The notes under the pieces are model-generated. The model ran no database searches. It was not told where the DNA came from and saw only the letters and a program-made list of their open reading frames with translations. From Tubulanus polymorphus (Eukaryota; Nemertea; Palaeonemertea; Tubulaniformes; Tubulanidae), in the NCBI RefSeq assembly GCF_964204645.1, contig NC_134034.1, forward strand, positions 10,163,414 through 10,227,413: a DNA stretch of 64,000 nt. Reading direction: 5' to 3'. Below are positions 27,801 through 39,800 of this stretch, one piece after another. Numbering within the stretch: the stretch's first letter is position 1; the number at the start of each line of letters is the position of its first letter. Position numbers and translations under genes: made by a program.

Positions 27801-30800
27801 TGCGACTTCTCTAAAAACCAGATCCTGAGATTTTGCGACTTTTATTTCGAAAAAAACTTTTTCAAAAAATATTGGGTTCTCAAACTTCTAGACGGTAATA
27901 ATATTTCTTAGATCTGTTATCTTACTACAGAGACTGTGTATATTAAGTTGACGAATATTGAACTTAGAATCATCGAATTTGATCTTACTTATATGTCATA
28001 CATATCTATATAAGGACAATCATTATTCAAGGGATTAGAGTCGATTAAGTCGTGATCTAGTAAGTAATCAGAATTATTCTGAATGACCTTGATACGGTCT
28101 GTTACATTTATATTACCGAGACACGTGTACGGTGTTACGGTCGCTCTCTATTTAGTACGGTCTTGAATAGAATTCTGAAAGACTATAAAATAATTTATTC
28201 AATAGTCAATAGTTGGCCTACAATTAGCAGTGGAACGCTATCAGCTATTCAACAGTCATTATTGTTTCATCTTTCAACACCTGTTGGCACGCAGCCAGCG
28301 CAGCGCAGCGTTCAATGCTTATGTAATACTATAGTCTCACACACAGACACACTTCCCTGCTGTAGTAGCAGTGATCAATAGAGAACATATATGGCTATTA
28401 ATACATGCGCTGTATTGTAACCATCCTCCCTCTGCAGGGACTCGAACCTGATGGCATCGCTACACTCAGCCACAGCACGAACCCCTGCATCAGTAGACCG
28501 GGTGCGCAGGTACATGCGCAGCTTTCCGAACGAAAACTGGCGGCACCGATCAGATTGCTCGTTGTAAAATCGTTGAGGCAAATTTCAAGGAAGAACTATA
28601 AATGGGAAAACCCGGGCTAAAATAAAACTGGATTTCTGATTGGCTAAAAATCACATCATCTGAACTGCGCATGTATCTGCGTACACGGTCGATTATGGCA
28701 GGGTTTCGTGCCGTGGCAATCTCGATGCCATCAGGTTCGAATCCCTGCCGGGGGAGGATGTATTGTAACACTACTGCGACGCACGCGGAGAGCTCTGGCC
28801 CGCGTCTTATAAATTTGATCCAAGGATAATAAAAGCTTTAAATTACGAGTATAATAAGACCTTTATGAATCATAAACTGTAATAAGGGGCTATCAATTAA
28901 TAAAGCAATTAGATTTAGAATAAAAACCGCTATCATCAGAACCAAAAACTCTAGAATCTTTGATGATCATAAAAACATCAGCTTTTTTCATGTTGCGTTA
29001 TTCTTGGAAAAATACTGACAACCTCAAGAAAATACTGACAAACTCGAAGAATTGTACTGACAACATCTTTCTGAGGTTGGCAGCTATGTATATAATAAAT
29101 AGGCTCATGTTTATTCTTGGACATTTGGCTTTTTGGTGGTCTTTTCAGCAGAGGGAGGCGTCTCAGTAAGGGATCTGTCTTTACGTTTCTTTCCAGTGTT
29201 ACCCGTCTGTGGTGTCGCACAGACATCGCTTTCGCCGATTCCTTCAACTGCTTCGCAGAATTTCTTTATCAGAGCTAACTTTCCGGTTTCACTAAGATGG
29301 ATGCCACTGATCATTCTCTTATGACGGTTACCGGCGCGCGAGATATCACCATCCGAAATATGTTAATGTTTGGCAATAATAAATGATAAAACACGTATCA
29401 CAAGTAGTCTTTGAAAAAAGATTTGTATTGCGAATTTCTACCTATTACGCCAAAATTCAAATTATTTTCTCGAATTTCGACTTATTATGTCGAATTTCGA
29501 GTTTTATCTTCATGCCGAATCTCGAATTTTTATGTCGAATTTCGTGTTGATTATGTCGAATTTCGACTTATTTTCTAGTCGATTTATCATTTCGAAATTC
29601 GACATAAAAATAACTCGAAATTAGACATAATAACTCGAATTTCTATATAGAAATTAGTAGAATTTCGACATAATTAACTCTAAGATCGACATAATAAGTC
29701 GAATTTCGACATAATTAACTCTAAATTCGACTTATTACGTCGAATTTCGAAATATCGTATGTCACCAAGGGGCTTCCGTATTATTCTGCTCCTTGAACAG
29801 AGCACAGTAGTACTGCAAAATATAAACTAGGCGGAAGTTATAGAAGTAATAGAAGTTAACCCTTTCGGACATGAAATATTGTCTTCATCGTGGTACTTAT
29901 GAGAAGTTATTAGGAAGATTATACTTCATGTCCCTAAAAGCCTAGCGCACATCGACACTGCGATTGGAGACAACTAGTTGCTACCGAACGATTACCCCGC
30001 GCACATCGAAATCTAGTTACAACCGGTCAGTTGCAGCAACTGCATGGCGCGTGTCGATCGTCAAGATCCAGAGCGCACACATCGACGGATATGACTGCGA
30101 TTGAGTACAACCAGTTGCTCAAAATTAGAACATGGGCAACTGGCTGGAACTGGAGATAGATCGACGCTTACCAATTGTAAGCTCGCTCACATCGACACAT
30201 TCAAGCAACTGATCGTATCCAGCCAGTTGCTCTCATGCGCCGTAAACTGCCAGTAATAGGGGTAATAGGCTTTCATACCAAAGGTCGAACGGTCGAGCCC
30301 ATTAAAAAACGAAAAAACATAAAAATAATAACAATTTCTACTTGAATTACTCGCGAAACTCATAAAAATGAAAAATAAATTCTCACACGCTCGAATTTAT
30401 TTTTCATTTTTTACTCGCTAAAAAGTAACGAGTAATTAACGAGTTGTTTGAATTGATATTTTAAACATATTTCAATATTCATATTTGTATGAGTTAGATT
30501 TTTAAATATAAAAGTGTGAGTAAAGTGTGAGTGAAATAATTCATATTTAAAACAGTGAATATTTATATTTGAATGAGTTTTAATAAAAATTTTGTTATAA
30601 AAATGAAGAAAGAAGAAGAACCCAACTTTAAAATCGAAATCAATGAAACCAATAAATCATTTTCACAGTTTTACATTAAAAATTATATTTCGGCAACAAA
30701 TTTAGTGTCCGCAAGGTATTATAAAATCGATAACATAACTATGATTAATCAAATATTATCAAATGAAACATATTTAATTACTGAACTAGTAGATACTTTT

Positions 30801-36800: not shown

Positions 36801-39800
36801 CTTACGCTTTAAAATATTTTTTTACCCTTATTGGTTTTATAACTATACATTTTAGATCTAATACCAATGAACTCTATCATTTCTTCACCGCCTAATTCAT
36901 CTTTGAATTTACCGGGAACTTTTTTATTATCATTGCTAAACAATTCATGATCTTTAGGATAGTTACTGAAATCAAAATGATGATTTAATATTTTTAAATC
37001 ATCAGTTATGTTATCACTTTTTATCTTTAATATGTGTTATGATATTTTGATTTAAAATGGTGTGATTTATTGCTGCGAGTATAATATTTTCCACAATTAC
37101 ATAAAACGCTTTCATTAGGATTATATTTAGGCGCAACAATTTCATCATCAAAATTACATTGAATTCTAATATCTTTATAAGAATTATTATTATCTAATTC
37201 ACATTGAATTCCAATATTTGATGAATTTTCATTATAGATAATTTGTTTATTATCAAAATTGAAATAATATAATTGTCTTTTTTCAATTCTTAAGTTAATC
37301 AAATCATTGTAATCTTTTGAAAGTATTATATCATCATTTCTTTCATTGAAAGGAGTTTTAAGAATATTAATTATGTTTTCATCTAAAGTTCCTTTAAAAT
37401 TTAAAACTGTATTGAATACTTTAGGACTTTTAACACCATTATCAAAAGTATCTACTAGTTCAGTAATTAAATATGTTTCATTTGATAATATTTGATTAAT
37501 CATAGTTATGTTATCGATTTTATAATACCTTGCGGACACTAAATTTGTTGCCGAAATATAATTTTTAATGTAAAACTGTGAAAATGATTTATTGGTTTCA
37601 TTGATTTCGATTTTAAAGTTGGGTTCTTCTTCTTTCTTCATTTTTATAACAAAATTTTTATTAAAACTCATTCAAATATAAATATTCACTGTTTTAAATA
37701 TGAATTATTTCACTCACACTTTACTCACACTTTTATATTTAAAAATCTAACTCATACAAATATGAATATTGAAATATGTTTAAAATATCAATTCAAACAA
37801 CTCGTTAATTACTCGTTACTTTTTAGCGAGTAAAAAATGAAAAATAAATTCGAGCGTGTGAGAATTTATTTTTCATTTTTATGAGTTTCGCGAGTAATTC
37901 AAGTAGAAATTGTTATTATTTTTATGTTTTTTCGTTTTTTAATGGGCTCGACCGTTCGACCTTTGGTATGAAAGCCTATTACCCCTATTACTACTGCCTT
38001 GCAACTAGTTGTCTCCAATCGCAATGTCGATGTACGCTAGGCTTTAAGCTGAAAAAAAGTTGAAAGGGGAATAAACGTTGCTCGAAACATACAAAATTAA
38101 ACGTTGCTCAAAATATATCTCTTCTATTAAAGAATGTTTTATCTTTGACTGAATCATCGTTGGATTTCTCTCGTCCTCCATCTTACACGGATAGTGTGTA
38201 TATTCTCGACTCACTGGTCTGGTATTATCTTCACCCAGTCCTGGCAGTGGTTGTATCTACAGTGATCTCCGCTGCTCTACGATCTTAGTGTAACCCATCC
38301 TCCCCTGGCAGGGATTCGAACCCGATGGCATCGAGATTGCCACGGCACGAAACCCTGCCATAATCGACCGTGTGCGCAGATACATGCGCAGTTCAGATGA
38401 TGTGATTTTTTATTTAGCCAATCAGAAATCCCGTTTTATTTTATCCCGGGTTTTCCCATTTATAGTTCTTCCTTGAAATTTGCCTCAACGATTATACAAC
38501 GAGCAATCTGATTGGTGCCGCCAGTTTTCGTTCGGAAAGCTGCGCATGTACCTGCGCACCCGGTCTACTGATGCAGGGGTTCGTGCCGTGGCTGAGTGTA
38601 GCGATGCCATCTGGTTCGAGTCCCTGCAGAGGGAGGATGAGTGTAACCACCCAGACACGTTCACTCAAATTGTATCTGTATCTGAAGTTATTAGGCCGCT
38701 TATGGTCCTTATGAGGCGCTATGGCGGTGATGTCGCAGTTAGCGTCGCACTGTGGTACATCAGACACTAAGGTTCTTGGTGAAGTATTATCGAAAATATT
38801 TTTCAGTGTATCGCGCTACCGGAGACATAGGACACGGAAAAGGCAGCCGTTGGATCGGCGATTTTGATCTTTGCCATACAATCAAAACTGCTCAGTACTG
38901 CTCATCAATAGCCGGCGGTGGAAAATCTAGAGTAAGTAACGTTTGTTTATGATTTATTCACTGTGAAGGAAATTATAGTTTTTCGGTTTAATTTATTCGC
39001 ATAAAATACTAATGTATGTTCGATAGTCTGTGACACCTCCTCTCCGCGCATTTCAATTTATAATTTCAGTTGCGAACCAGCTCATTATACATTTATCATA
39101 ATCGTTGCATCGATCTGTTTTCGTATTCGGAAACAAATGTTTAATTCACTGTCACTTGTTTGTTAAGCGCGTCCCTATCACAACGGTAGGCCGAACGATA
39201 ATGATTGCACTATACTGTTAATGCGACCCGAAGAAGGAACCGAGATATCGTGGGAGAGCGAATCCGTCCTCAGCTCCGCACAACGACACAAATTGAATTT
39301 TGACCCGACACCAAAATAGATAAACAACTCATGTGTATATAATTGAATTTTGACCCGACACCAAAATAGATAAACAACTCATGTGTATATAATTTGAATT
39401 TTGACCCGAGACCAAAATAGATAAACAACTCATGTTTATATAATTTGAATTTTGACCCGAGACCAAAATAGATAAACAACTCATGTGTATATAATTTGAA
39501 TTTTGACCCGAGACCAAAATAGATAAACAACTCATGGGTATATATTCCGAAATCTAGATACTCACAACTATTTTATTATATTCGTGTTTCCTACGTATCG
39601 ACACCTTTTACAAATCTTTGTTTCCTAATTTCTTGAGGGTGCTCTCCCGGGTACTCTCCCGGAGCTACCCCCGTTGCTCTCCCGGGTACTCTCCGACTAG
39701 TTCAACTATGTCTCTTATTTTCATACTCTCAAAATTTGGTTTCCAAGGAACTATTCTCGTGACCAACGCCACCACATTTGGGGAAGGCCGACGACCAACC

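Follow-up and report, generated by a model that had tools for sequence, protein, structure and literature searches.

Mirror-image elements with Polinton ends in the genome of Tubulanus polymorphus: probable satellites of full-length Polintons

A 64,000-nucleotide stretch of the genome of the palaeonemertean Tubulanus polymorphus (RefSeq assembly GCF_964204645.1, contig NC_134034.1, forward strand, positions 10,163,414 to 10,227,413; hereafter the window) carries a 7.7-kb element that, to judge from its sequence, is young and consists of one Polinton end copied back on itself. In this element and its relatives we observed Polinton-like ends and duplications, related empty sites, terminal sequence shared with full-length Polintons, recurrent hinges, near-identical arms and conserved small open reading frames (ORFs). 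In the reading that accounts best for these observations (probability about 0.6), such elements are Polinton satellites that would be moved in trans and made, or kept, symmetrical by fold-back copying.

Structure and gene content of the element

The element (positions 30252-37992, 7,741 bp; Table 1) is enclosed by perfect copies of ACTGCC. Its termini, AGTAATAGGG...CCCTATTACT, are complementary, the start being AGTAATAGGGGTAATAGGC. The AG...CT ends and terminal inverted repeats that characterize Polintons are present, as are the long inverted arms typical of the Foldback/Galileo type. Aligned by BLAST over 3,089 columns, the arms show 13 mismatches and a single 2-base gap; a second aligner gave 15 mismatches and two gaps over 3,092 bases. 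The GC content is 22.3%, as against 33-46% in 2-kb segments of the window outside 30001-38000. The initial annotation had described these ends, the flanking hexamers, near-identical 3.09-kb inverted arms and an extreme AT content, all of which proved correct (arm identity 99.5%).

Table 1. Features of the element and its surroundings (window positions) and terminal palindromes at other loci
Feature	Position	Strand	Remarks
Left target-site duplication	30246..30251	.	ACTGCC
Right target-site duplication	37993..37998	.	ACTGCC
Left arm	30252..33340	+	3,089 bp; starts with AGTAATAGGGG
Right arm	34906..37992	-	99.5% identity to left arm
Single-copy loop separating the arms	33341..34905	.	1,565 nt; holds p72, p100 and hairpin
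Hairpin	33345..33416	.	perfect, 33 bp, 6-nt loop; inner end of left arm
p214, left copy	30573..31217	+	214 aa; C-terminus Cys/His-rich
p214, right copy	37027..37671	-	
Scrap of polymerase-like ORF, left arm	31208..31411	+	residues 1050-1117; 94% identity
Scrap of polymerase-like ORF, right arm	36833..37036	-	
p758, complete ORF	34462..36738	-	
p758, left copy	31506..33385	+	broken (ORFs 31506-32468 and 32585-33385); truncated beyond about residue 612, enters hairpin
p100	33836..34138	-	hydrophobic stretch by eye; C2H2 zinc-finger match below Pfam cut-off
p72	34186..34404	-	small protein; single hydrophobic stretch by eye
Host repeat, left side as searched	30132..30251	.	inverted repeat with right flank starts at 29934
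Host repeat, right side	37999..38048	.	
Terminal palindromes	L028:1120-1388, L030:6927-7195, L033:686-1038, L034:8051-8402		
Terminal palindromes, further	L032:5506-5772, L036:135-327, L023:233-501		

The p214 reading frame is intact in both arms, and at its 3' end each arm holds 68 residues of a polymerase-like ORF, the reference for which is a 1,222-aa ORF of a 17.7-kb element described below. A complete polymerase gene was not found in the element, which has only these two scraps. The family integrase, compared with the element at E values up to 10, revealed no retroviral-type integrase, nor did any of the element's ORFs match one; ATPase and putative capsid gave chance-level matches (E of 0.8 or worse). 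The polymerase-B scrap that the initial annotation noted in each arm is real at 94% identity, but the polymerase-like ORF matched no polymerase model.

The largest gene, p758, is complete once in the element, its left copy being broken and truncated. Four relatives elsewhere have 39, 41, 44 and 52% identity over 98, 98, 84 and 56% of its length, and a fifth has 28% over 37%. Within the same genome, five of 64 matches (the window's own included) are whole and stop-free at 99-100% identity. The ORF p758 is a real gene. Pfam, NCBIfam and PDB returned no informative match, on which ground an assignment of p758 as a polymerase was rejected. Its D-x-D-x-T-x-D-F, YNK and R-x-E motifs may resemble those of replication-initiator families. 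Viral contigs yielded 110 pattern stretches for p758, none confirmed as a relative. A large protein set contained one relative of p100 (67% identity over 87%), and none of 433 candidates from it was related to p214 at E of 0.001 or better.

Two repeat regions flank the element: a cluster of short repeats, direct as well as inverted and rich in TCGAATTTCGA, to its left (29431-29753) and a tandem repeat with a 50-51-bp unit to its right (39290-39500).

Related elements in the genome

Counts from the genome searches are lower bounds. The numbers of candidates scored, out of all candidates, were 40 of 1914 for the element end, 91 of 1342 for the PolB family, 150 of 674 for p214, 59 of 150 for p758, 110 of 2066 for the integrase, 150 of 369 for p100 and 40 of 408 for the host repeat. 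Insect odorant receptors gave three matches, with 5 of 5 candidates scored.

The first 355 bases of the element have at least 71 matches in the 268-Mb genome, some of them several per element. Sixteen elements with paired ends, spanning 1.3 to 24 kb, were recognized, and 15 of these have a perfect 6-bp duplication and the left end AGTAATAGGG. At least 90% of the length is inverted in seven of the 13 short elements (C8a, C5b, C10b, C4a, C8b, C6b and C5c), with C4a, C5c and C6b being inverted over nearly their whole length at 98.0, 98.4 and 99.7% identity. The same arrangement is seen in the orientation of neighbouring hits less than 8 kb apart: 27 convergent, one divergent and one on the same strand for p214 (150 hits), and 17 convergent, none divergent and none on the same strand for p100 (150 hits). 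The corresponding figures for the integrase (110 hits) were zero, one and zero. Copies of p758 occur in both orientations in nine of 36 places. One mirrored place looks like a duplicate contig, as p214 and p100 hits at C14:177811-181984 and C2:17704733-17708906 have equal spacing and scores and C14 probably duplicates part of C2. At another locus, an element end and its flank recur inverted 2.8 kb apart (L023:5379 and L023:8209, i.e. C10:7557878 and 7560708); this is a flanking inverted duplication.

When the right half of the window element was compared with L039 and with ten elements that are mirrored wholly or in part, a common unit emerged, with the order end, p214, variable middle, p72, p100 and hairpin. 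Homology to this unit extends to the hairpin (unit bases 4588-4648) in seven of the 11 compared and is shorter in C5b, C10c, C3a and L039. In the window element, p758 and the polymerase scrap are placed between p214 and p72; p758 is absent from the ten other elements and occurs on one side only in L039. The right half of the window element is a complete unit, and its left half is the outer 3.09 kb of that unit, copied and joined to the hairpin base.

The insertion site lies in a host repeat. With the flanks of the window element joined at the insertion point, all 40 scored copies of this repeat matched across the junction (base 120 of the 240-base query) at 93-98% identity; the matches started at base 1 or 3 and ended at base 166-187. 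Hit and query lengths were equal or at most one base apart, so that there is no room for a second ACTGCC in the empty copies. These copies represent related empty sites at other places in the genome rather than the allele without the insertion. The comparison indicates that the window element has moved.

Full-length Polintons with shared ends

Two AT-rich elements, of 17.7 kb (C4) and 24 kb (C1), have 160-172 bp of their end in common with the window element at 93-96% identity. The 17.7-kb element encodes an integrase (rve, 8.8e-10, above the cut-off, with a chromodomain match below it), an A32-type ATPase (1.8e-11, above the cut-off), the 1,222-aa ORF, in which a DTDS motif and a match to endonuclease VII were noted, and a putative capsid protein of 415 aa with a sub-cutoff Pfam match only and no relative in PDB. 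Relatives of all four, at 94-98% identity, are found in the 24-kb element. The 1,222-aa ORF is labelled a putative PolB because of its DTDS motif and its location within the element; no polymerase model matches it. As 77 of the 110 scored integrase matches have no stop, a source of enzymes for the short elements is likely present in the genome. Integrase relatives sought in viral contigs gave six pattern stretches, none of which was confirmed.

Three checks suggested in the initial annotation came out in its favour: other copies with the same ends (at least 71 end matches, and 6-bp duplications in 15 of the 16 elements with paired ends), full-length Polintons sharing about 170 bp of the end, and unoccupied sites, here host-repeat copies elsewhere rather than the allele itself, matching across the junction in 40 of 40 scored cases.

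Several further features of the full-length elements were observed. Their ends are palindromes of about 190-350 bp that resemble terminal hairpins: the terminal sequence is followed by its reverse complement and then, where seen, by CTTAAAATATTC (Table 1; the set comprises the two full-length Polintons and elements only partly read). Within the 24-kb Polinton (L030, C1:14026001-14034000), residues 140-806 of the polymerase-like ORF recur in additional copies at 2.0-kb spacing, which explain the surplus length of that Polinton. Divergent integrase pairs 5-9 kb apart (C4:16019984/16029313, C5:16070662/16076139 and C9:6914127/6922315) look as if two Polintons had been joined end to end by their integrase ends. 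Finally, the genome has further PolB-family matches (91 scored), whose open frames reach about 1,690 aa; these are perhaps other Polinton families.

Hinges of the mirrored elements

In the window element, C2a, C9a and C6b, the hinge lies at the hairpin. A truncated arm is fused to the hairpin stem in the first three of these, at unit base 3,089 in the window element, about 4,018 in C2a and about 809 in C9a. Other hinges resemble the imperfect central palindrome of the 24-kb Polinton (L028:6845-7240), which is located between its integrase/ATPase cluster and a convergent cluster with the putative capsid gene. This palindrome recurs at the hinge of C5c (94.6% over 444 bp), at those of C4a and C8b (78 and 76%) and partly in the centre of C10b (96% over 117 bp).

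Arm identity and selection on the small genes

The two p214 copies within an element are 99.7-100% identical and are nearest to each other in all six elements in which both ORFs are full-length. The p100 arms are nearest to each other in six of six pairs, and the p72 arms in four of eight, the other four being ties. In the array region between p214 and p72, whose length varies between elements from 438 to 1,043 bp, the arms of seven elements differ in length by 0, 0, 0, 0, 24, 24 and 120 bp. These differences sum to 168, against a mean of 1,331, and one of 5,040 pairings is as good. Such near-equality makes it probable that one arm served as template for the other, either not long before the last insertion or in the course of it.

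The median ratio of non-synonymous to synonymous substitution rates (dN/dS) is 0.14 for p72 (15 loci, 98 pairs), 0.30 for p100 (14 loci, 87 pairs) and 0.58 for p214 (17 loci, 135 pairs). Ratios were calculated between loci by NG86, uncorrected for AT bias, using one ORF per locus of at least 90% full length (93% for p214); broken copies were dropped, as were pairs with dS of 0.02 or less. Both p72 and p100 are under purifying selection, and their conservation argues for a gene-bearing satellite rather than a dead derivative.

Exchange of modules between elements

Parts of the unit also occur in other contexts. In L027, which otherwise resembles an ordinary Polinton, p214 sits at the integrase end, and L024 has it at one end of a Polinton with a different gene arrangement and an integrase that is 60% identical. 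In L009 and the truncated L015, p214 adjoins the C-terminal part of the polymerase-like ORF, and in L026 p214-p72-p100 is joined to a putative capsid gene. These contexts indicate that modules and halves have been swapped between elements, as does L039 (C7:9549600-9558400), whose p758 is 99.7% identical to that of the window element while its p214 is only 85-90% identical.

A listed integrase occurs less than 9 kb from p214 at two places only, and from p100 likewise at two. A candidate for an integrase-bearing progenitor with p214-p72-p100, L040 (C1:16.89 Mb), was discarded since the stretch looks like two neighbouring elements. At C1:16.41 Mb, an integrase (C1:16411346, plus strand) and p100 (C1:16414306, minus strand) converge within 3 kb, as judged from hit positions only; a single element whose two halves are of the integrase and the p100 kind may lie here.

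Discussion

Relation to known systems

Polintons have been described as carrying a protein-primed PolB and a DDE integrase (PMC6431247), and vertebrate Mavericks were recognized by (AG)3 or (AGT)2 end motifs with 6-bp duplications (PMC8097293). The window element agrees with them in its 6-bp duplication and in the end sequence common to integrase/ATPase elements of the same genome. It differs in being 7.7 kb long and in that both its halves are the same half. The accessible text of the vertebrate Maverick account contains no mention of palindromic, non-autonomous or hairpin forms (PMC8097293). The initial annotation had proposed a non-autonomous foldback class, mobilised in trans, with a layout that may be undescribed. 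That class fits, mobilisation in trans being its presumptive part, and can be refined: a single half-element has been mirrored. Mirrored Polintons were not found described in the literature searched, which is weak evidence of absence as that search covered few subscription papers.

Parallels also exist outside Polintons. Snapback genomes of adeno-associated virus (AAV) are formed from the left or the right moiety, in symmetric and asymmetric forms (PMC8235507). As in the present family, where one moiety is mirrored symmetrically or with an asymmetric loop, part of a linear genome with a terminal repeat becomes self-complementary. However, the AAV forms are parvovirus particle genomes, whereas the elements studied here are chromosomal, present in many copies and endowed with conserved genes. 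Galileo (PMC3573991) has similarly long and internally repetitive inverted arms but is related to the P element, in contrast to the Polinton ends, duplications and shared sequence seen here. In yeast, short interrupted inverted repeats give rise to mirrored dimers by replication error, which are then integrated (origin-dependent inverted-repeat amplification, ODIRA; PMC4689423). Those are chromosomal amplicons that integrate by homologous recombination, without an integrase-type duplication (PMC4689423).

A fold-back model and its rivals

Under the satellite interpretation, full-length Polintons that share these ends would supply an integrase and a polymerase acting in trans on the short element. 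During strand-displacement replication, the displaced single strand could fold at a palindrome or hairpin, and the polymerase would then copy the folded strand back to its 5' end, yielding a mirror molecule whose two ends carry one and the same terminal repeat. Where copying resumed at the hairpin the product would be symmetric, and where it skipped it would be asymmetric, with a loop. Insertion of the mirror molecule by the integrase would create the 6-bp duplication.

Several points weigh against this interpretation. The analysis is one of sequences and no activity of any element was observed. The most symmetric palindrome, C6b, lacks a duplication and has ATTAAT as its left end. No polymerase match to the 1,222-aa ORF was obtained in Pfam, PHROGs or PDB, and no integrase-bearing element with p72 and p100 was demonstrated, L040 being apparently two neighbours. 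Only one of three compared Polinton centres matches the hinges, because those of the 17.7-kb Polinton and L027 do so over just 50 and 22 bp; the hinge points vary, and L039 and C5b fold elsewhere. Ties between elements for p72 (four of eight) imply that elements also recombine, and selection on p214 appears moderate, in a set that includes elements not shown to be mirrored. Finally, random fold-back should mirror any half, yet integrase halves seem to be unmirrored (none of 110 hits). This would favour either selection or a mirrored lineage that replicates as such.

The strongest competitor, which we regard as a serious but less probable account, is one old mirrored lineage, whose palindrome formed once and whose arms have been kept alike by gene conversion, with no repeated formation by fold-back. 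It overlaps with the satellite interpretation and differs only in how the symmetry arises. Mirroring of p214/p100 units, with none among 110 integrase hits, speaks for it, as do the several hinges that share the same central sequence. The differing hinge and truncation points suggest several events instead, although later deletions at the hinge could also have produced them. Somewhat more doubtful still is a stronger version of the satellite idea: a self-perpetuating mirror-image lineage with two identical half-genomes meeting at a hairpin, which would replicate by folding on itself, carry selected genes of its own (p72, p100, p214 and p758, the last perhaps a replication initiator) and depend on Polinton integrase and polymerase.

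In Galileo and other foldback transposons, arms can lengthen by unequal recombination, and those seen here could have grown likewise, the link to replication being accidental. Repeated arrays in the arms of several elements and the exchange of modules between elements agree with this, but the arms take in entire genes and reach as far as the hinge, which four elements share with the central palindrome of a Polinton, and the ends and 6-bp duplications are Polinton-like; we consider this route improbable. An origin from two Polinton fragments lying head to head, or from a decayed full-length Polinton, is very improbable: despite the polymerase scrap in each arm and the occurrence of neighbouring elements (L040), a single 6-bp duplication encloses the whole, the arms are 99.5% identical, and the joined flanks match empty host repeats across the junction. 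Perfect palindromes are a known long-read artefact, and an inverted chimeric read or a false join could be suspected here, but 13 bases and one gap distinguish the two arms of the window element, its loop lacks symmetry, and the arms at independent loci are different and come with duplications of their own. An artefact is therefore the least credible explanation, and chance or an assembly join is unlikely as the source of the window element because a perfect 6-bp duplication is individually present in 15 of 16 related elements.

Implications

The current view is that Polintons replicate as linear DNA with protein priming, but the replicating forms are hard to see. If the satellite interpretation is true, integrated mirror copies with palindromic hinges would be frozen by-products of replication and, as such, a genomic record of how Polintons replicate. 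Provided that the small genes, which are conserved, act for the satellite, a helper-satellite relation comparable to that of defective or satellite virus genomes would exist within one genome, in many copies that can be compared with each other. A self-perpetuating mirrored lineage, if there is one, would live on Polintons as satellite viruses live on their helper viruses.

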